Positions 4,566-22,827 of a stretch of DNA of 22,827 nucleotides are shown in pieces. How positions within the stretch are numbered: position 1 is the stretch's first letter; every line of letters begins with the position of its first letter. Location of the stretch: the IMG/VR virus record IMGVR_UViG_3300006916_000422, positions 1 through 22,827 of that record; one strand, written 5' to 3'. This stretch comes from a virus. The notes beneath the pieces were generated by a model. It was not told the DNA's origin. It was given only the letters and a program-made list of their open reading frames with translations, and did no database searches. The position numbers and the translations under genes were made by a program.

Positions 4566-6104
4566 TTATACTTCTAAGACAGCTTCTAAGTCAAGCCAGT
4601 TTTTACCCATCTTTAATTCAATGCCTATTGGCATGTCATACTCGTTACCATAACGACGAAGTGTCTCCTGTGGTAGGGACAGCATCGCTTCAGCCATAAT
4701 ATCAATGCACTGCTGTTCTTCAGAAGGGTAAACATCTATTACTATAGAGTCGTGAACTGTGTTGCAAATGAGAGATTTCATACCTGCATTTTTCATATCG
4801 TGATACAACTTAACCAAGGCTATAGGCAATAGGTCAGCCGTAGCAAATCCCTGCACAGGATAATTACATATAGCAGTGCGGTTAGTAGCAGTACCCCAAT
4901 CTGTCCACTTGGAATCTGGGAAGGCATACACCCTGCCCGATGGTAGGGTTATTTCTTTCTTGGTTACAGCATCCTTCTGTAAGTCCTTGTGCCATTCTTT
5001 AACACCCGCATACTTCTCCTTGAATGCTCTGTAGTATCTCTGTTGGCTATCCGTCCCGCTAACTCCACCGTATAAAGGCTTGAAAGTATGAGCTTTTGCC
5101 TCTTGTCGGGTGCAGCCAATGATGCTAGCAGTGTAGTTATGAACGTCTGTTCCTGCCTCTACATCAAGTCGAATGTTATCATCTTTGGCTAGATACCCCG
5201 CAACTCTGAACTCCAGTTGTGCATAGTCCCCCTCTAGGATTGACCCTCCCTCGAACCTACTCTCTATCGCCTTACGAATGGCAAACGTCGAACCCCGTGG
5301 CATGTTCTGGAAGTTAGGATTACGACTAGACAGCCTACCAGTAGCTGTGATGCATTGCATATACTCTGTATGTACAAAGCCCTTACTGTCGACATTGTTG
5401 AACATACCCTCTACAAACGAACGCAGATATGTTCGCAGGGCAGAGTATCGTATGTAACTCTGTGAAAACTCTTGAGCTTCTCCTCGTAGTGTTAGGGACA
5501 CGTCCTCTAGTGTAGTCTTGTCTGTCTTGAAACCCCCTGATGCTGTATCGAATGCGTCCCGCGGCAGAACTTTGAACCCTGCCACCTCTTTAAGCTTCTT
5601 GTATCGGACACCCTTGCCTTCACAAAGCTTGCAGATACGAACAGCCTTCCCCAGACTACCATCCTTCTTGAGCGGAGAATATCGTCCTGTACCCCTACAG
5701 GCAGGACACTGTGAACCCTCCGTTTTATAGACCACATCTGTGTGTCGTATGACATGATGCTTAAACTCTGTGCGCGTCATGCGCTTACGTAGTTTTGGTT
5801 TCTTAGTAGCCCCGCGAAACTCGTGACCAAGATTGAAGAGGATAGCCCACTGCTTCTTGTCCTTTACCTTGCAGGAGTATAACAGCATAGACCTATCATC
5901 GGGACTATCCAAGTTGACAGGAGTATCACCCATAGCATTCCGTGCCAGTTCGTTAAGCCTACGTTCAAGGACGAACATCTCCTGCTCGTACTCCTCTTTA
6001 ATCTGTAGTAGGGTGTCTGTGTTTATCTTAATACCGTTCTGCTCTATGTGAGCCAGAACATCCGTCATCTCAAACGACAAGCGTAGTGTGGGTAACAGGT
6101 TCAT
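4566..6104 (-). CDS. Family A DNA polymerase (polymerase subunit) with DnaJ-type zinc finger insert
   Basis: This is the replicative polymerase, without its own exonuclease domain. Start ATG 6104 has GAGGAG 7 bases upstream, giving 512 residues. The N-terminus (MNLLPTLRLSFEMTDVLAHIEQNGIKI) is the usual thumb entry of PolA. Residues 133-140 (CPACRGTG) and 158-165 (CKLCEGKG) are two CxxCxGxG units as in the DnaJ central domain, placed before the palm. Motif A is GDYAQLEFRVAG (D293). Motif B is RQEAKAHTFKPLYGG, with F341 at the E. coli 762 position and Y345. Motif C is NTVHDSIVIDV (D452). A DnaJ-like insert in PolA is, to my memory, the described signature of SAR116 phage HMO-2011. The preceding gene supplies the proofreading domain and overlaps by 35 bases. 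The stop TAA overlaps an ATG at 4566. Confidence 0.95.
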   Translation of the reverse strand: MNLLPTLRLSFEMTDVLAHIEQNGIKINTDTLLQIKEEYEQEMFVLERRLNELARNAMGDTPVNLDSPDDRSMLLYSCKVKDKKQWAILFNLGHEFRGATKKPKLRKRMTRTEFKHHVIRHTDVVYKTEGSQCPACRGTGRYSPLKKDGSLGKAVRICKLCEGKGVRYKKLKEVAGFKVLPRDAFDTASGGFKTDKTTLEDVSLTLRGEAQEFSQSYIRYSALRTYLRSFVEGMFNNVDSKGFVHTEYMQCITATGRLSSRNPNFQNMPRGSTFAIRKAIESRFEGGSILEGDYAQLEFRVAGYLAKDDNIRLDVEAGTDVHNYTASIIGCTRQEAKAHTFKPLYGGVSGTDSQQRYYRAFKEKYAGVKEWHKDLQKDAVTKKEITLPSGRVYAFPDSKWTDWGTATNRTAICNYPVQGFATADLLPIALVKLYHDMKNAGMKSLICNTVHDSIVIDVYPSEEQQCIDIMAEAMLSLPQETLRRYGNEYDMPIGIELKMGKNWLDLEAVLEV

Positions 6105-6651
6105 TATATATCTCCTCAAACGATGAGCCAAAGGCTTTGAGTTGTTCTAGGGCTACTTGCTCTGTAGCCAGTACGTCGGCTATACCGTACTCTACTATCG
6201 TGTCCCACGGTATATCATAGAAAGTCTTGCCCTCCTTGAAGTAGGGAGTAATGAGGTCTTTCTCCTTCTGCACTCCACCATACTTCTCTGCAACAGAAGC
6301 AAGCGACAAAGCCCAACGTCTTGCCTTCGATAGAATATATTCTGAAACCATCGTATCATAAACTTTCCCTTCATACTTAAAATTAGATTCGCGTATCCAC
6401 GACAGGTCAAACTTGATGTTGTGTCCTATCACAATGTCGGCACGGTCTAGCTCTGATTGAAACCTGTCGAACGCATCGGGTGTTGGTTCTTCTGTACTGT
6501 GGTAGTAACAGTCGTAGGTTACGTCTTCCTCGTCCAACCACTTGTATCCTATTGCCACGAGCATATTGCCAAAGTAGGGCAGGGGAGTAGTAGAACCGTT
6601 AGACTTCTCCTTGTGGGTAGTCTCTACATCAAAAGTGAGGATGTTAGTCAT
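6070..6651 (-). CDS. DEDDy 3'-5' exonuclease (proofreading domain of PolA as a separate gene)
   Basis: A 193-residue DnaQ-fold exonuclease. The metal ligands are visible: D8 and E10 in LTFDVETT, D82 in GHNIKFDLSW, and Y155/D159 in EYGIADVLATEQV (Yx3D, so the DEDDy subtype). It equals the N-terminal exonuclease domain of T7-like family A polymerases, but the frame stops at TGA (6072-6070), 35 bases after the polymerase start in the next frame. The last residues (NEPVTHTTLVV) are encoded by the overlap. The start ATG 6651 follows a GGGGGGGAG run and overlaps the upstream membrane protein gene by 8 bases. It most likely works in trans with the polymerase just downstream; a frameshifted fusion protein is the alternative. 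Confidence 0.93.
   Translation of the reverse strand: MTNILTFDVETTHKEKSNGSTTPLPYFGNMLVAIGYKWLDEEDVTYDCYYHSTEEPTPDAFDRFQSELDRADIVIGHNIKFDLSWIRESNFKYEGKVYDTMVSEYILSKARRWALSLASVAEKYGGVQKEKDLITPYFKEGKTFYDIPWDTIVEYGIADVLATEQVALEQLKAFGSSFEEIYNEPVTHTTLVV
6112..6117 (-). promoter_or_regulatory. Shine-Dalgarno GAGGAG for the polymerase, inside the exonuclease gene
   Basis: GAGGAG on the minus strand lies 7 bases before ATG 6104 and inside the 3' end of the exonuclease gene. It supports independent translation of the polymerase rather than expression only by frameshifting. Confidence 0.75.
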
Positions 6652-13805: not shown

Positions 13806-14055
13806 GAATAATATTTCATACCACCTTAATGAACTAAAAGACGGTGAGAAGTTTGCAGTCGTACCACATGAGCAATTGGCATTGATTGCTAATACTGTTA
13901 ATTCTGTCCAGTCTCAAGTGAAAGTGCTTCACGAGATGCTAGAAGCTTTTGGTATAAAACAGTATTACTACCACAAGGATGTCAAGACACTTGCGGATAT
14001 GCCAGAGATAAAGATTGGTTTTAACAAGAAGGAATATGAACCAGAACAAGACTAA
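13798..14055 (+). CDS. Small hypothetical protein
   Basis: An 85-residue protein. ATG 13798 is within the end of the winged-helix gene and has GGGAA 8 bases upstream. An ATG at 13780 in the same frame would add 6 residues but has a weaker site. The middle (LIANTVNSVQSQVKVLHEMLEAFG) is a heptad-like helix that may form a short coiled coil, followed by tyrosine-rich KQYYYHKDVK. No family recognised. It is the last gene before a terminator, so it closes the early accessory region. Its coupling suggests partnership with the winged-helix protein. Confidence 0.65.
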   Translation: MHKNNISYHLNELKDGEKFAVVPHEQLALIANTVNSVQSQVKVLHEMLEAFGIKQYYYHKDVKTLADMPEIKIGFNKKEYEPEQD

Positions 14056-14080
14056 ATAAACCTTACTATTTCCTCCCCAG

Positions 14081-14110
14081 AAACCCTCTAGCATTGTCTA
14101 GGGGGTTTTT
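14081..14110 (+). terminator. Intrinsic terminator
   Basis: An 11-base stem, AAACCCTCTAG with CTAGGGGGTTT (one G-U pair), loop CATTGT, and a run of five T at the end. It lies 25 bases after the last early gene. Confidence 0.88.
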
Positions 14111-14297
14111 GTTTGGGTAGATGCCAGAATAACCATCAAAGGCTTGTATAGGCTTGGTTATCTGGGTTGTTGCTATCGGGTTTATTGCTACGCTTCTTTA
14201 CCTTGATGCATCCCCTAAAGGGTTAACCATACAGATTATATATGGATGACAAATGACAAAACGCGTACGCGCGCGGGTGTGGGCGCGATATATTATC

Positions 14298-14340
14298 GGG
14301 GAAAGTATCGGGGAAGTTTCGCGGGGTCAACTTGGCGGGG
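14298..14340 (+). other. Potential G-quadruplex motif
   Basis: Four GGGG runs at 14298-14301, 14310-14313, 14323-14326 and 14337-14340 with loops of 8, 9 and 10 bases. The repeating unit reads CGGGG at steps of 12, 13 and 14 bases. The loops are longer than the classic 7, so stability is uncertain. Confidence 0.5.
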
Positions 14341-14647
14341 CGGTTGGTGTTTCATTGAAGACCCGCTATCGACAAATAAAAATAAATATACTTGCTTGCG
14401 GGCGCACGCATGGGACACCCCCCTCCCCCCGGTATTTGCTAGCAATCCCGACATATTTTTTGTATTTTGAGGGTTTCCTGTATGGTATTCCCGACGAACA
14501 TGTAAGGGGAGACGCTCCGAGAACCCGCTGCGGGGGGTATGGGGTTTCCCCCGGCAGGTGTACTGCCATGATAGGGTCAAAAACACGTCCTGTCAACTAA
14601 AAAATGACCCCTCCTGTATTTTTTTTTTACTATTTCAGAATAACCTG

Positions 14648-14676
14648 TTGACATAACCCCCTTCTAACCCCATAAT
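14648..14676 (+). promoter_or_regulatory. Strong sigma70-like promoter for the virion operon
   Basis: TTGACA (14648-14653), exactly 17 bases, then CATAAT (14671-14676, 5 of 6). Transcription would begin near 14683, leaving a leader of about 100 bases before the small terminase gene. Confidence 0.75.
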
Positions 14677-14784
14677 GTAGACTGCTGGGGCTTGCAAAAC
14701 AGCGAACGACCCCACACATAGCGATAATTTCCTTACTTTATAGGTCTTCGGTACGCTTCCCAGCACCAAATTACGGAAAATAGT

Positions 14785-15183
14785 ATGAATTTGATACAAC
14801 AAGCTCCCAAAAAGCAGTTGTCCGACAAACAGGAGTCGTTCCTGACTGCTCTGTTTGAAAACAACGGCAATTTTAACAAGGCAGCAGAGGTTGCAGGCTA
14901 CTCCACAGGCTCTGTATCGTGGCTACGCGACAAACTAGCCGAAGAAATAGTCGAGCGAACCAAGTCTCTCCTCTCAGGACACAGCCTACGGGCTGCAAAC
15001 AAGATGGTAGAACTGGTAGACACCCCTGTAATCGAACGGGGAGACGACCTACGGCTACGTGCGGCAGAGGCGATACTCAATAGGGTAGGTCTTGGCAAAC
15101 AAGAGACAATGAACCACAACGTTCAGGCAATCCATGGCGTAGTCCTGTTGCCACCAAAGAAAGAGGTAGTAATCGATGGGTGA
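14785..15183 (+). CDS. Terminase small subunit
   Basis: The small terminase recognises phage DNA for packaging and recruits the large subunit. The 132-residue protein has an N-terminal helix-turn-helix-like part (LSDKQESFLTALFENNGNFNKAAEVAGYSTGSVSWLRDKL, residues about 12-51) as in many small terminases, a central helical region and the common phrase LRLRAAEAILNRVGLGKQE (about 92-110). Position directly before the large terminase cluster and after the virion promoter supports this. ATG 14785 has a weak GGA. It overlaps the next gene by 8 bases. The packaging site it binds may be in the preceding intergenic region. Confidence 0.82.
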   Translation: MNLIQQAPKKQLSDKQESFLTALFENNGNFNKAAEVAGYSTGSVSWLRDKLAEEIVERTKSLLSGHSLRAANKMVELVDTPVIERGDDLRLRAAEAILNRVGLGKQETMNHNVQAIHGVVLLPPKKEVVIDG

Positions 15184-15538
15184 TACTAAACAATTTAACA
15201 AAAACTTTAATAGGGTGACAAAAAAAGATTATGATAGCCTGACTACAAGAAATAAAAAACGGTATGACAGAGCTAAAGATAAGGGTTTAATTCCTGCAGT
15301 TAAAAAAGGCAGTACACTAGGCACTATAACAGTATTTGACCCTACAAGTTTTGATAGAGTTGCCGATAAGGAACTAGGTATAGGTATGCTTCGTGATGAA
15401 CCATCAAGAACAGCAACAACTATACGATATAATCCTGACATAGGGCAGTCCATACCTACTAGTAGACCTGCTATGTCTAGAGGACCCGACAGTCCTAGAG
15501 GCAGACCCGCATCACGTTCGGTAGAGAAAAATGGCTGA
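15176..15538 (+). CDS. Hypothetical basic protein between terminase genes
   Basis: A 120-residue basic protein of no known family. ATG 15176 has GAGG about 9 bases upstream. The first half is rich in lysine and asparagine (NKNFNRVTKKDYDSLTTRN, KKRYDRAKDKG); the second half is rich in Pro, Ser and Arg, with SIPTSRPAMSRGPDSPRGRP, probably disordered. The last residues, RGRPASRSVEKN, closely match the end of the next protein (RGRKAASSVEKN). The shared end is also a DNA repeat. It could be a small DNA-binding or virion accessory protein. It overlaps the next ATG by 8 bases. Confidence 0.65.
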   Translation: MGDTKQFNKNFNRVTKKDYDSLTTRNKKRYDRAKDKGLIPAVKKGSTLGTITVFDPTSFDRVADKELGIGMLRDEPSRTATTIRYNPDIGQSIPTSRPAMSRGPDSPRGRPASRSVEKNG

Positions 15539-15543
15539 GTGGC
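15516..15543 (+). repeat. 28-base direct repeat spanning a gene end and next start, copy 1
   Basis: Starts GTTCGGTAGA and ends CTGAGTGGC. It matches 15811-15838 at 25 of 28 positions; the three differences are all G here and A there. It contains the end of one ORF and the start of the next. Confidence 0.85.
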
Positions 15544-15833
15544 TTATAAGGGCAATGACACCCTCTACTCCAACAACCTCTGACAATGAAACTGTTCGCA
15601 CTATATCGTATGAACAGGATGGTGTTGCTTACTTAGCCCCTACAATACGAATGATTGATGGTAAACTAAAAAGATTTGAAGATAAACAAGCGATAGACGA
15701 AGCCATAAGAAGAAAAGATGGTATTCGTGTTCCTGATGGCATGAACTCAACAGAGTTTTCAAAGCTGATTAGTGAACGTATAGGAACGGCTCGTGGTAGA
15801 AAAGCGGCAAGTTCGGTAGAAAAAAATAACTGA
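15531..15833 (+). CDS. Hypothetical protein with a phage internal-protein-like tail module
   Basis: A 100-residue protein starting at ATG 15531 with AGAG upstream. The centre (TVRTISYEQDGVAYLAPTIRM, then AIDEAIRRKDGIRVPDGMNS and FSKLISERIG, residues about 21-85) resembles a short module seen at the ends of large phage internal proteins (TvR..., LvPTi..., eAi..y..tG.hlg.F.s.e.A...). I know it only as a pattern without a function. The last ten residues repeat those of the preceding protein. The gene lies between two near-identical 28-base repeats and just before the large terminase, so it may be a duplicated or mobile unit. Confidence 0.62.
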   Translation: MAEWLIRAMTPSTPTTSDNETVRTISYEQDGVAYLAPTIRMIDGKLKRFEDKQAIDEAIRRKDGIRVPDGMNSTEFSKLISERIGTARGRKAASSVEKNN

Positions 15834-17537: not shown

Positions 17538-19286
17538 ATGGCAGGTGGCGGTTCTAAGCCGATAGAAATTAAAAGTAAGTTTGACCCTCGCGTGACAACT
17601 TTGCGAGAGGTTGTTGACTTATACGCGAAGGACGCTCGTGCAGCAGGTCGTAAGATTGAAGATTTTGAAAAGACTTTTAATCTTGCTGGATTAAAGGATA
17701 TGCTAGATAGACCAGCTATTGATATGTTCGAGGGTAGCTGGGATGGTGACTTAAATCCACTAGAAGCCGCCTTACAGGGCAAAGCGGAGTCTACACATCG
17801 TTCGGTTATATCTGCAGTAAGTAATGTGCAGAGAAATGTTATAAGAGAAGCAACCAGATTAAAAACTGGTTCTGATTTGATACAGATAACCGATACTGTA
17901 TATATACCTCCAAAGTCTAAAGCCTATACTAAGAGTTTTGGTTATAATCCGTACAGAATAGGATTTTTAACAGAGGCTCTTGTAAAACATGTAAAAGATA
18001 ATCCTGCTGATAAACCGATTGCTAACGCTATTATGTTTCAACTTCAGACAGGACTACGCCCCTCTGCCGTAGGTGGTCTTCCTACTGCATCCTTCAAAAC
18101 GTCGGAACGTCCGGGAGGTTCTCCGGGGATATTTATACCGAAGGATATGAAGGGTGTTAAAACAGATAATAATATAAATGTACCGCTATCAAGACGTTCT
18201 ATAGCTATACTACAAGACCAAACAATGTACAACGAAGCAGAGTTCGGAGGTTCCGAAGGATTTTTTGTAAGACGAATAGGAAATAAAGTAGAGTCTATTA
18301 CGGATACTGATATAAATAGAGTGCTTAAAAAATTAAATTCTAGTTTTGGAATTAAAAAAGACCTTAAAACAGTAGACACTAAAGATGTACCATACCTAAC
18401 TTCGTACGACCTTCGACGTTTAAATGCAACGGCCTTTGACCAACTAGGTGTTGATGTAAACAGAGCAGGCGCATTAGTAGGTCGCCCTATACAAGCAAAT
18501 ACAGAACAATCTAGATATATTGGGGCAGCTCCCGGTGTTTACGGAGACTCTGCAACAGAAGATGTAAATAGAGTATCCAACTTCTTTCACCAACAATACG
18601 CAGAAACACTTTCGGGTGCTAGCGAAGCAGGGCAAGAAGGTAAGTCTCTAAGTCTCAATACAATGTTATTTGATGGTAAAACACCAGAGTTTACTGACAT
18701 AGAAACAGAAGCACCCGCATCAATAAAGATAAAGAAGTTTGACGTTGGTACAAATATACAAGTAGAAGAAAAAGGCCCTGCTAAACAGGCTGTTCCCTCA
18801 CCACAAGTAGCTGATGACCTAATGCCTGCGCCTAACCCTGAGGCGGCTGAAAGCTTGAGAGCTAAGGGATTTGACGGAAAGAAGATGGCTGATGCAATCT
18901 TAAACTTCGTCAATAAGGATACAACCAAGGCAGTTACAGGAGTTATTGCGGGGGCTGGTTCTACTTTAGCGGCTATGGTTCCCGGACCTGTGGAGGCACT
19001 GGTTACAGGAGTCTTCGACCAGAAGAGTTTAGAAGAGGCAGGAGCTAAGGGTAAAAAGCTAGTACAGGACGTTACTGGTCAAGAGGAGGGCGTACTTCCT
19101 GCGCTTGGTGAAGTAGCAGGGGTAACTGGTGAAATGGTTACAGGTGCAGTTGCTGACCCCGAAGCCCCTCTTGCAACTTCAAAATTTTTAGCTAGTCCTA
19201 TGGCGACTATAGCTTCAGGATTTATTAACAGGAACGAGGAAGCCACTCCTGTTGATATGAATACAGGTGGCTTCCTATCTAGATAA
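17538..19286 (+). CDS. Tyrosine-recombinase-like domain fused to a virion-type C-terminal tail
   Basis: A 582-residue protein between large terminase and portal. Residues about 135-345 follow the catalytic layout of tyrosine recombinases: R174 in LQTGLRPSAVGGL, a beta-hairpin lysine such as K205 or K208 before NNINVPLSRRS, SYDLRRLNATAFDQLG where R293 is the second arginine but Y290 replaces the usual histidine, AGALVGRP where R316 replaces the next His/Trp, and Y327 in QSRYIGAAPG as nucleophile. The N-terminal 120 residues could be the core-binding domain. From about 380 the chain is unlike an integrase: acidic/proline linker, then Gly/Ala-rich hydrophobic AVTGVIAGAGSTLAAMVPG (465-483) and more small-residue sequence. 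No Shine-Dalgarno is seen before ATG 17538. Function could be resolution or integration of DNA, or a structural role. Confidence 0.75.
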   Translation: MAGGGSKPIEIKSKFDPRVTTLREVVDLYAKDARAAGRKIEDFEKTFNLAGLKDMLDRPAIDMFEGSWDGDLNPLEAALQGKAESTHRSVISAVSNVQRNVIREATRLKTGSDLIQITDTVYIPPKSKAYTKSFGYNPYRIGFLTEALVKHVKDNPADKPIANAIMFQLQTGLRPSAVGGLPTASFKTSERPGGSPGIFIPKDMKGVKTDNNINVPLSRRSIAILQDQTMYNEAEFGGSEGFFVRRIGNKVESITDTDINRVLKKLNSSFGIKKDLKTVDTKDVPYLTSYDLRRLNATAFDQLGVDVNRAGALVGRPIQANTEQSRYIGAAPGVYGDSATEDVNRVSNFFHQQYAETLSGASEAGQEGKSLSLNTMLFDGKTPEFTDIETEAPASIKIKKFDVGTNIQVEEKGPAKQAVPSPQVADDLMPAPNPEAAESLRAKGFDGKKMADAILNFVNKDTTKAVTGVIAGAGSTLAAMVPGPVEALVTGVFDQKSLEEAGAKGKKLVQDVTGQEEGVLPALGEVAGVTGEMVTGAVADPEAPLATSKFLASPMATIASGFINRNEEATPVDMNTGGFLSR

Positions 19287-19526: not shown

Positions 19527-21647
19527 ATGTCAGAAGACAATTTCCTACAGCCTGCAGACGACACAACTATACCCGTTCAATCCCCAGATGAAATGCTTCC
19601 GGGGTTGGCAGGGTACGTTCGACGCAAGTTTGAAGAGGCTGAGAACGGACGTTTCTCCTACGAGCAACGTTGGTTACAGGCTTTTAAAAACTTTAGGGGC
19701 ATCTACGATTCGACTACGCAGTATAGAGATTCCGAAAGGTCACAGGTATTCGTAAGAGTAACCAAGACCAAGGTTCTTGCCGCGTATGGTCAGATTATAG
19801 ATATCCTGTTTGCTAATAAAAAGTTTCCACTCGTTGTAGAACCAACTCCTATGCCAGAAGGTATAGCAGAGTTTGCTCACATGGAAACTCCTCTAGACCA
19901 AATGTCAGAAGACCCCTACGGGTTCTCTGGGGATGGCAGGGAGCTTACTCCCGGAGCCTTAGGTGCTGAACCCTCTAAGGATTTTCTTGGTGGTCTAAAA
20001 CAGTCTATGGGGCAGTTGCCACTAGCTGAAGGACCTAGCAAGATAGGCGAACCACAGATTAGCCCAGCACAGAAGACAGCCCTGAAGATGGAGAAGTGTA
20101 TTCACGACCAACTTCTCGACACGAATGCGGTCAATGTTTTCAGGAGTGCAATCTTTGAGTCGGCTCTTCTAGGTACAGGAATTGTAAAAGGACCTTTCAA
20201 CTTCAACAAACGTGTTCACAAGTGGGACAGAGACGAGAATGGTGAACGGGAATACCAGCCATATGAAAAGTCTGTACCACGTATAGAAATGGTATCTGCT
20301 TGGGACTTTCATCCAGACCCTGCGGCTACAAACATCGATGACTGTGAATACGTAATAGAGAGACACCGATACAATCGTCAACAACTTCGCTCTCTAATCA
20401 AGCGTCCCTACTTCATAGCGGAGAACATAGAAGAGTGCCTAGCAAAAGGCCCCAACTATGAGGACAAGTATTATGAAGATACTATCCGCGAGGATGAGAC
20501 TGAGCCTTACGTATCTGAGAATAGATATGAGGTTCTAGAGTATTGGGGTGTCCTAGATTCTAAACTAGCTAGAGAAGCGGGCTTCGACGAAGCTACTGAC
20601 ATGTCTGAGTTTGACGAACTACAGGTAAACGTCTGGGTTTGTGGGGGTATGATACTTCGCTGTGTCCTAAATCCATTCACACCTGCTCGTATACCATATC
20701 AGGTATTTCCATACGAATTAAATCCGTATCAACTCTGGGGTACTGGCGTGGCAGAGAATATGGAATACTCACAGAAGCTGATGAATGGTCACTATCGAAT
20801 GGCTATTGATAATCTAGCCTTGGCAGGTAATCTAGTCTTTGACGTTGATGAGGCTAGCCTTGTCCCCGGTCAGAACATGGACATCTTCCCCGGAAAGATT
20901 TTCCGTAGACAGTCGGGGGTTACTGGAACAGCTATCAACGGACTAAAGTTTCCAAACACCGCAGGTGAAAATCTGCAGATGTATCAGATAGCAAGGCAAC
21001 TTGCTGACGAGGACACAGGAATACCGTCGATTATGCACGGTCAGACAGGCGTTACAGGCACAGGACGTACTGCGGCAGGTCTATCCATGCTAATGGGGTC
21101 TGCTGGGCTTTCTATGAAGACTGTGGTTAAGAATATAGACGACATGTTGTTAAAACCACTAGGGGAGGCATATTTTCAATGGAACATGCAATTCAACGAC
21201 GATGCTCCCGATATTGTGGGGGACTTGGAAATAAAGCCGAGGGGTGTTGCTGCTGTAATGCAGAAAGAAGTTCGGAGTCAGAGGCTTACAGCCCTCCTCC
21301 AGACTGTCGCAAACCCGATGCTTGCGCCCTTTATCAAGATACCTAATCTTATGCGGGAGTTAGCTATCTCTCAGGACATAGACCCTGATAGTTTAGTTAA
21401 TGATACTAATGAAGCACAATTATATGCAAAAATGTTACAAGGAATGATGGCAAATGCTCAACAAGCAGCAAGCGCAGAAGCTAGCCCCGCTGGTGCAGGG
21501 CAAGGAATGGGAAATGATGGAGGAGTACCTGAAGGACCTCAGGGAACTGACGATTCAGGGCGTGGTAACGGCACAATCGGAGTCGGAACTGCTCCGAGCG
21601 CAGGGGAAGCTGGCTTTACTGGAAATCCTCCTCAAGCTGAAGAGTAG
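19527..21647 (+). CDS. Portal protein
   Basis: A dodecameric ring at the capsid vertex through which DNA enters and leaves. The 706-residue length and the sequence fit podovirus portals: an early helix RRKFEEAENGRFSYEQRWLQAFKNF (about 32-56), KVLAAYGQIIDILF, a wing region with PRIEMVSAWDFHPDPAATN, YEVLEYWGVLD, then AENMEYSQKLMNGHYRMAIDNLALAG (about 411-436) and TGRTAAGLSMLMGSAGLSMKTVVKNIDDMLLKPL. The last 65 residues are low-complexity (Ala, Gly, Pro) and are overprinted by another gene in a different frame from 21454. ATG 19527 has AAGTAAG upstream. Assigned by overall pattern and place after the terminase. Confidence 0.88.
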   Translation: MSEDNFLQPADDTTIPVQSPDEMLPGLAGYVRRKFEEAENGRFSYEQRWLQAFKNFRGIYDSTTQYRDSERSQVFVRVTKTKVLAAYGQIIDILFANKKFPLVVEPTPMPEGIAEFAHMETPLDQMSEDPYGFSGDGRELTPGALGAEPSKDFLGGLKQSMGQLPLAEGPSKIGEPQISPAQKTALKMEKCIHDQLLDTNAVNVFRSAIFESALLGTGIVKGPFNFNKRVHKWDRDENGEREYQPYEKSVPRIEMVSAWDFHPDPAATNIDDCEYVIERHRYNRQQLRSLIKRPYFIAENIEECLAKGPNYEDKYYEDTIREDETEPYVSENRYEVLEYWGVLDSKLAREAGFDEATDMSEFDELQVNVWVCGGMILRCVLNPFTPARIPYQVFPYELNPYQLWGTGVAENMEYSQKLMNGHYRMAIDNLALAGNLVFDVDEASLVPGQNMDIFPGKIFRRQSGVTGTAINGLKFPNTAGENLQMYQIARQLADEDTGIPSIMHGQTGVTGTGRTAAGLSMLMGSAGLSMKTVVKNIDDMLLKPLGEAYFQWNMQFNDDAPDIVGDLEIKPRGVAAVMQKEVRSQRLTALLQTVANPMLAPFIKIPNLMRELAISQDIDPDSLVNDTNEAQLYAKMLQGMMANAQQAASAEASPAGAGQGMGNDGGVPEGPQGTDDSGRGNGTIGVGTAPSAGEAGFTGNPPQAEE

Positions 21648-21708
21648 CCAAGAGGCAGTAGTCCTCAACGAGAATAGAAAAGAAAACAGCACATTTATTT
21701 ATGAGTAG
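21454..21708 (+). CDS. Small helical protein overprinted on the portal 3' end
   Basis: An 84-residue protein whose first 65 codons lie out of frame inside the portal gene (194-base overlap). The product is clearly protein-like and amphipathic: APLVQGKEWEMMEEYLKDLR, then SELLRAQGKLALLEILLKL. The phrase xxLVxxxEWxxxxEYL...ELxRxQGxLxxLexLL matches a type of short protein I recall downstream of portals in other phages, of unknown function. The portal residues in the overlap are low-complexity, as expected when the second frame is under stronger constraint. ATG 21454 has AAGGA 11 bases upstream. It probably acts in head assembly, by position. Confidence 0.72.
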   Translation: MLNKQQAQKLAPLVQGKEWEMMEEYLKDLRELTIQGVVTAQSESELLRAQGKLALLEILLKLKSSQEAVVLNENRKENSTFIYE

Positions 21709-21716
21709 TATAGACA

Positions 21717-22827
21717 ATGGCAATAACATACACGCAGACTCAGACACTAACTCCAGACCAGTATCATAATAGCTTTGTCAACTTCTATCAGCAAATACTA
21801 GGAATAAAAGGTACGTACAGTGGTGGAGGCGATGGAGGTGACGATACTTCTGATGAGCAAGAAGAGACAACAACTGGCGTAAGCTATAATGTGTCTCCTA
21901 GGGACGACGATGATATGTCCCCGTTTGTTCCGGGGTCTTCCTTTGTTAAGTCTGACGGTACTATGGACATAAACGTTATGGCCTTAGACCCTAAGAATAT
22001 TAATTCAAAAATATCTGAGTCAGAGGCGTTTGGCTCTAAGACTTTTCGCAATGACAGGGTAAACCTTTTTAACCTTCCTGACGATTCTAGTCTTAGGGAG
22101 AAGATAACTGATAACTTAGAACCTGCAGTTAAGGGGGTTTTTGCAGCTGCGAGTTCAATGGGGCAGACCAGTTTAGTAGGAGCAGGTTTAACAGGCGGTT
22201 TTATGAGCAGTCTTATTGGGGGAGAAACCTATAAAGACGAAATGGGGAATACCCAGTTTGACCCCACGGGAAACCCTGTTCTAAGTGCAATGGGTCAGAT
22301 AACCAGAGACGCAAGAAAAGATATACTAACAAGAATAGCCGCAGAAGCGGAGGCTAACCCCTCAGGGGACTTGGGGTTTGCCGCTAGCATAGGAAACCTC
22401 ATGGTTGTCCGAGGTCCGGGGGACGTATCTTACTCAGGCAACAGACAGGGCTTGTCTTTTCAACAGATAAAAAATATAGAAGCTCTATCGAAGGGTATAC
22501 TCCCCGATACCTTCCGTTTTGAGAAGGATAAGGATGGTCAGAGTGGGCTATTCATGGGTAACAAGAGGATTAACACAGGCATTGAGGAGAGTGGGGGTGT
22601 CTACTTAGACCCTAATAATAAACAGGCAGGCTTCTATAGAGCGGATGGAGCTATCTATACTCACAGGTTTGGATATGCTCCTGTGGGTATGATGTCGGAC
22701 GTGGAAACCTTGGCTAAGAACTATTTTCCGGGCATGGATGCTAAAACGGCACGAGATTTAGCGTTAAGTGCTATACAGAATGCTAGGGCAGGGAGTGGCA
22801 CTCTTCAAAGTAATTTGCGTGACGCAG
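21717..22827 (+). CDS. Large virion or scaffold-type protein, incomplete at window edge
   Basis: I translated from ATG 21717 and the frame stays open to the last base (370 codons). The start is 8 bases after the previous stop, with no strong binding site. Residues 1-30 (TYTQTQTLTPDQYHNSFVNF) lead into a very acidic, glycine-rich linker (GGGDGGDDTSDEQEE, about 36-50, and a DDDD run). Residues 138-169 are Gly/Ala-rich and hydrophobic (VKGVFAAASSMGQTSLVGAG). Later parts are mixed alpha/beta (SFQQIKNIEALSKGILPDTF, YRADGAIYTHRFGYAPVG). No catalytic motif is recognised. By position after portal it may be an internal virion protein, tail component or scaffold. The glycine/alanine stretch recalls the tail of the recombinase-like protein. 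Confidence 0.6.
   Translation, partial: MAITYTQTQTLTPDQYHNSFVNFYQQILGIKGTYSGGGDGGDDTSDEQEETTTGVSYNVSPRDDDDMSPFVPGSSFVKSDGTMDINVMALDPKNINSKISESEAFGSKTFRNDRVNLFNLPDDSSLREKITDNLEPAVKGVFAAASSMGQTSLVGAGLTGGFMSSLIGGETYKDEMGNTQFDPTGNPVLSAMGQITRDARKDILTRIAAEAEANPSGDLGFAASIGNLMVVRGPGDVSYSGNRQGLSFQQIKNIEALSKGILPDTFRFEKDKDGQSGLFMGNKRINTGIEESGGVYLDPNNKQAGFYRADGAIYTHRFGYAPVGMMSDVETLAKNYFPGMDAKTARDLALSAIQNARAGSGTLQSNLRDA

Follow-up and report, generated by a model that had tools for sequence, protein, structure and literature searches.

The window, by which we mean the whole 22,827-nucleotide stretch of virus DNA that was analyzed (IMG/VR record IMGVR_UViG_3300006916_000422), carries a portal protein gene whose 3' end is shared with a second, much smaller gene (Table 1). 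The original prediction had described an 84-codon frame that opens inside the portal gene, shares 194 bases with it, and ends 61 bases beyond the portal stop, and these coordinates were reproduced. Because a TGA lies in the small frame shortly before the ATG, the start of the small gene is well fixed. Ribosomes probably initiate internally at this ATG, behind a weak Shine-Dalgarno-like site.

Table 1. Features at the portal locus of the window
Feature	Position	Strand	Details
Portal protein gene, SU10-type	19527..21647	+	706 aa; PF23899 97.2 bits for the whole protein (curated cut-off 30); phrog_332, 2e-78
Predicted small helical protein gene	21454..21708	+	84 aa; ATG start; +1 frame relative to the portal gene
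Doubly coding stretch	21454..21647	+	194 nt; portal residues 643-706
Portal tail motif	21546..21623	+	26 residues; exactly over the QGKLALLE region of the small protein
AAGGA, Shine-Dalgarno-like	21439..21443	+	10 nt upstream of the small ATG
TGA in the small frame	21445..21447	+	9 bases ahead of the small ATG; frame open from 21448
Next gene	21717..22826	+	Begins 9 nt past the small gene; runs off the window

The match of the portal to PF23899 spans residues 246-561 and leaves the C-terminal tail outside. With 45-53% identity to the portals of HMO-2011, the CRP phages, and HTVC033P over 86-96% of the protein, it is homologous to portals of the HMO-2011-type group, and its closest annotated relatives are those of Pelagibacter phages HTVC033P, HTVC115P, HTVC104P, and HTVC103P, Roseobacter CRP phages, and HMO-2011. 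The small gene lies on the same strand at the 3' end of the portal gene, the position typical of the portal-adjacent family to which we assign its product. For the next gene, no family match below E 0.05 was found in PHROGs or Pfam. The median G+C content of the window clade (46%) is above the range that PMC9038755 gives for SAR11 phages (31.9-35.4%), and we therefore claim no host for this clade.

Other parts of the window also deserve mention. Between the large terminase and portal genes, an odd place, a 582-aa protein (17538-19286, + strand) has a phage-integrase (tyrosine recombinase) domain (PF00589, 32.1 bits against a cut-off of 27.1; phrog_1, 5e-10) and a long extra C-terminal part. 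On the minus strand, positions 4566-6131 encode a Family A DNA polymerase (DNA_pol_A, 169.7 bits) with a DnaJ-like CXXCXGXG insert that scores 18.7 bits for PF00684, below the cut-off of 32.7. A Family A DNA polymerase with a DnaJ-like central zinc motif is a trait of the HMO-2011-type group. Two adjacent small ORFs on the plus strand (15176-15538 and 15531-15833) have no family match and end in near-identical peptides, SRSVEKNG and SSVEKNN, as if by partial duplication. Two further unmatched ORFs, 14246-14470 and 14253-14600, overlap each other within 14055-14785 (+ strand), and the region 14060-14785 gave no Rfam match.

Conservation and selection in two reading frames

We gathered loci from IMG/VR scans (the best 80 loci of each) and from named isolates, which yielded at least 663 loci with a portal gene. 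Twelve of these had no portal stop and 23 were too short; the remainder collapsed to 514 distinct loci. Among the loci listed, the small protein is present in 503 of 514, with no match in the other 11 (ten HMO-type loci and the outgroup Y3). The nested arrangement seen in the window, which a large clade of marine phages has in common, occurs in at least 351 distinct loci: among those listed, 125 are of the window type, 5 of the L590 type, 59 of the HTVC033P type, 55 of the L623 type, 77 of the HTVC104P type, and 30 of the HTVC115P type. One locus, L357, was excluded from the nested counts, as its nested score came from the script's choice of start codon. Stops in the small frame of close relatives, which were looked for, did not occur; each of the 351 nested loci keeps an uninterrupted ORF that opens with ATG. 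A simple scan for Shine-Dalgarno-like sites of the AGGA, AAGGA, AAGG, or GAGG type detected one in 289 of these loci and none in 62. The presence of an ORF is by itself weak evidence, since 107 other ATG-started +1-frame ORFs of at least 70 aa lie elsewhere in 496 portals. What exceeds chance is conservation.

Selection has left its mark on the shared bases. In the window clade, fourfold synonymous sites of the portal gene differ in 824 of 2464 comparisons upstream and in only 38 of 1586 in the overlap (43 independent pairs; Fisher p = 1.5e-152). This collapse, together with the intact ORF, bears out the earlier description of a functional-looking gene. In other groups, the corresponding fractions upstream and in the overlap are 189/1168 versus 55/829, 85/699 versus 12/423, 116/546 versus 13/361, and 19/90 versus 4/67, and in HMO-type phages they are 238/765 versus 3/106. 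Wobble positions of the small frame differ at 105 of 1188 sites inside the overlap (window clade) and, in a subset of 17 pairs, at 34 of 461 sites within the overlap versus 10 of 40 beyond the portal stop. Synonymous changes are thus fewer in both frames, the pattern of dual selection, and the portal reading is itself constrained by selection. Conservation confined to the portal frame, an outcome that would have spoken against the small gene, was not what the synonymous comparison of both frames revealed: the small frame is conserved too. Over the same bases, amino acid differences in the window clade amount to 0.076 for the small protein versus 0.118 for the portal tail, in agreement with the suggestion that the helical reading is the more constrained. 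In the 104P groups these values are 0.160-0.189 and 0.220-0.266, and neither reading is strongly constrained. On this comparative evidence, we regard the small ORF as a real gene.

Homologs on separate DNA

In phages that are not nested, the start of the small gene ranges between 104 nt ahead of the portal stop and 286 nt beyond it. These phages include HMO-2011, CRP, Rhizobium, Sinorhizobium, Aeromonas, Vibrio, and Pseudoalteromonas phages along with uncultured kin. Most of their portals carry the tail motif D.TG.G.G.IG.G..P.PGE.GF[ST]G, a form of whose last part was matched in 137 of 148; in nested phages, PGExGF of the portal falls on QGKLxL of the small protein. It had been proposed to check whether other portals end before 21454. 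Given that the tail is conserved even without overlap, the other portals of the clade do not simply end there, and most separated relatives keep the tail as conserved protein.

We built test profiles from non-nested phages only and used portal-preserving (synonymous) randomizations as controls. The small-protein profile scored nested proteins at medians of 32.9 to 45.6 bits in four tested groups and single nested loci at 25.6 to 52.2 bits, while controls reached at most 24.2 (nine representatives). With the tail profile, the window scored 37.1 bits (randomized, at most 21.3) and HTVC033P 58.0 (at most 30.8), and the tail motif alone gave a median of 25.9 in the window group against at most 14.5 after randomization. 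The fit of HTVC104P-type tails to this profile is poor (1.0 to 25.1 bits). For the window, HTVC033P, and HTVC115P, the nested readings stand far above synonymous-randomized controls. A de novo overprinted pair, in which one frame would have no outside homolog, was rejected because both frames match homologs in separated phages. Nor does overprinting as a local event, the view first taken of this locus, survive the comparison, the pair being neither young nor specific to this phage.

These scores also bear on the idea that the portal alone is real and the +1 ORF is a by-product of composition. Long +1 ORFs are not rare in such portals, as the count given above attests, and Gly, Pro, and Ala codons give a Leu/Glu-rich reading in the +1 frame. 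Yet composition would not predict the roughly 14-fold drop in portal synonymous change, the homologous separate genes of relatives, or randomized controls that score far lower. We take the drop and the control scores to exclude a by-product, the chance of which we consider negligible.

The window protein fits the pattern W-x5-YL-x23-QG and matches the profile from non-nested phages at 34.8 bits. Sequence comparison places it in an unnamed family that is encoded directly after portal genes in many podovirus-type phages. In 91 rows, G51 is invariant and Q50, L10, L56, and L62 occur in at least 90%. Searched against PHROGs and Pfam, the 84-aa protein had phrog_6961 as its best match in the former (E 0.068) and none in the latter, where weak matches (FliJ, HBL, and others) fell below cut-off and were judged coiled-coil noise. 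The records of CRP-1 (L414), CRP-345 (L415), and Aeromonas phage 1233 (L423) do not annotate the small gene that follows the portal. Farther out, the match in MW202426 is marginal (11.8 bits), and candidates in the outgroups Y3 and StenR look similar by eye and score like shuffles. Pseudomonas phage Rollin, however, has a homolog after its portal (L424, 4455-4670; 25.5 bits, with shuffles reaching no more than 4.1), for which the annotation shows just a truncated 44-aa ORF. As the portal of Rollin has no tail motif, this suggests that of the two partners the small protein came first. We regard it as the structured member of the pair, older than the tail and under tighter constraint. The original prediction had allowed for a helical protein that was older or more constrained; that part gains from the wider distribution of the family, whereas the simple overprinting in this phage that went with it does not hold.

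Loss of the overlap and the deeper direction of change

On three contigs, L545, L550, and L572, the genes are apart and the small gene begins 2 nt past the portal stop. A portal tree of 52 rows places L545 and L572 as sister to the nested L570 and then to L552 (support 100/99 and 100/100). The portal core of L545 is 80-84% identical to those of the nested L542, L544, L546, L570, and L552, reaching 84% with L544 and L546. A single clade of all nested rows was rejected (AU p = 1.8e-74, for a group named after the tree was seen). With L545 and L572 lying within the nested phages and a single nested clade rejected, the sequences clearly indicate that the overlap was lost at least once in the L545 group, from nested to apart. 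The proposal that the portal tail overgrew the helical gene by stop-codon loss, or the reverse, does not stand as simple overprinting, and at least one lineage has given the overlap up again. Synonymous change in the portal tail is free again after separation: L545 and L550 differ at 7 of 31 tail sites versus 4 of 85 upstream, while the nested pair L540-L542 differs at 1 of 39 versus 8 of 90. Two further pairs (L544-L570 and L540-L570) were dropped because different tail lengths put them out of register. Once apart in this trio, both genes would have been free to evolve, each on separate DNA.

The likeliest route of separation would be tandem duplication of the shared stretch, after which each copy would have lost one reading. 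No vestige of duplication was found in the DNA of non-nested phages, where 7-bit matches were trivial and corresponded to the actual short overlap. Two-copy intermediates were likewise absent among 340 loci with a match; the second match of L357, the sole double match, is meaningless. The small protein of L545 shares just some 36% identity with nested proteins, so that recombination, in which a downstream gene from another phage replaced the overlapped one in L545, L550, and L572, is as possible as duplication. We judge this quite conceivable, though short of probable. In its favor, the L572 small protein is 36% identical to that of its sister L546 and 37% to that of L633, when the portal cores of L545 and L546 share 84%. 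On the other hand, a gene released from a second frame should diverge fast too, and among the best 25 matches per query, the best matches of the L545 and L572 proteins outside the trio are all from nested clades (about 36%) and none from separated lineages.

It is likely that the HMO-2011-type phages also descend from an overlapping ancestor. Conversely, an ancestor with genes apart could have suffered a deletion that ran the portal into the small gene in a new frame, with selection driving the new tail to converge on the old motif, a sequence of events that we consider rather unlikely. The basal-most relatives in the portal tree (MQM1, CHOED, Slicky01, and L589) do have their genes apart, and a clade uniting the nested phages with the L545 pair was neither supported nor rejected (p = 0.49), which leaves room for such a merger at the root of the nested state. 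A tree that included distant outgroups was not used because of long branches. In addition, position 1 of portal codons is the wobble position of the small protein, and the tail can thus be partly tuned without changing the small protein. Under synonymous recoding, nested small proteins could reach tail scores whose group medians are 50-72 (36 in the 104P type, with an actual median of 3.6), compared with 79 for a typical non-nested tail on the same scale. For separated small proteins, by contrast, the best attainable medians per group lie between -15 and -34 (-24 for the L545 group). A merger would accordingly call for a large, matched amino acid change, and the asymmetry favors splitting. Counted by eye, the tails of HTVC033P and HMO-2011 also share 21 of 26 motif positions, and the direction in the L545 group is clearly from nested to apart. 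When the non-nested tail and small-protein profiles were assessed for joint codability, the observed register ranked 2 of 30, with 10 of 500 permutations as high; this is suggestive only, as the register was chosen from overlapping phages.

Taking splitting as the preferred direction, we tentatively entertain a further step, namely that the tail arose when the older small gene acquired a second reading, that it became indispensable, and that the pair was then unzipped by duplication in several lineages. If true, in HMO-2011, Rhizobium, and Roseobacter phages the portal tail and the gene downstream of it would both derive from a single piece of DNA, with a different frame retained in each.

Products and relation to known systems

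The two products are predicted to differ in structure. The AlphaFold model of the small protein (mean pLDDT 91.9) is a confident helical bundle, a four-helix chain with helices at 4-14, 17-39, 43-60, and 62-82. Portal residues 641-695 and 697-706, corresponding to the overlapped tail, have pLDDT under 50 and model as a disordered, Gly/Pro/Ala-rich segment. A fold search with the small protein gave no match at E <= 0.001 in PDB or BFVD, and a second look at PDB returned generic helical bundles only (Z at most 6.7). The closest BFVD rows, A0A7S5RHX4 and W8G0L7 (70 and 76 aa), may be family members. PDB sequence matches to designed helical repeats were set aside, as no stretch passes alone. From position and fold, the small protein is probably an assembly or connector factor on the portal or procapsid. 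Searches of open-licence PMC papers yielded nothing usable on virion proteomics of relatives and listed none that describes this overlap or a natural reversal of an overlap through duplication; the word "overlap" is absent from the main text of PMC9038755. Overall, we think it highly probable that the locus holds a conserved pair, a structured small protein and a disordered tail, both under selection and separated at least once, in L545, L550, and L572.

Among double-stranded DNA phages, long same-strand overlaps with selection on both readings are unusual. The length had been singled out as unusual at the outset, and rightly so if measured against +1 overlaps among virus genomes, for which PMC8903798 gives a median of 14 nt (interquartile range, 8-26). 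Because hundreds of genomes allow these two proteins to be compared in overlapping and in separate form, the system is a natural experiment on the constraint imposed by overlap and on release from it. It also means that a conserved structural-module gene is absent from the annotation of cultured SAR11 phages, in 4 of the 4 records examined (HTVC033P, HTVC115P, HTVC104P, and HTVC103P).

Several known systems invite comparison. Like the window, HMO-2011-type phages (Puniceispirillum phage HMO-2011, Roseobacter CRP phages, and Pelagibacter phage HTVC033P) have the homologous portal, the tail motif, and the small protein family; within this group, PMC9038755 places subgroups VII-X on a separate branch. 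Unlike the window, HMO-2011 and the CRP phages have an overlap of at most about 104 nt or none, whereas the four Pelagibacter phages named above share the full overlap with its unannotated small gene. SU10-type portals share the core domain, and the tail of the window portal lies outside it. In Rollin, as in the window, a gene of the small family starts in the portal 3' end in the +1 frame, but the overlap is 77 nt and the portal is without the tail motif. In the LUZ24 module, as described in PMC10386132, three small genes with no assigned function are congruent with the portal. Finally, PMC8227390 notes that disorder is frequent in the products of overlapping genes and that one of the two frames is, as a rule, ancestral. 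The overprinted viral genes reviewed there resemble this locus in their same-strand overlap of one structured and one disordered product. The present pair departs from them, as they are described, in that both of its products have separate homologs and a natural lineage has lost the overlap again.
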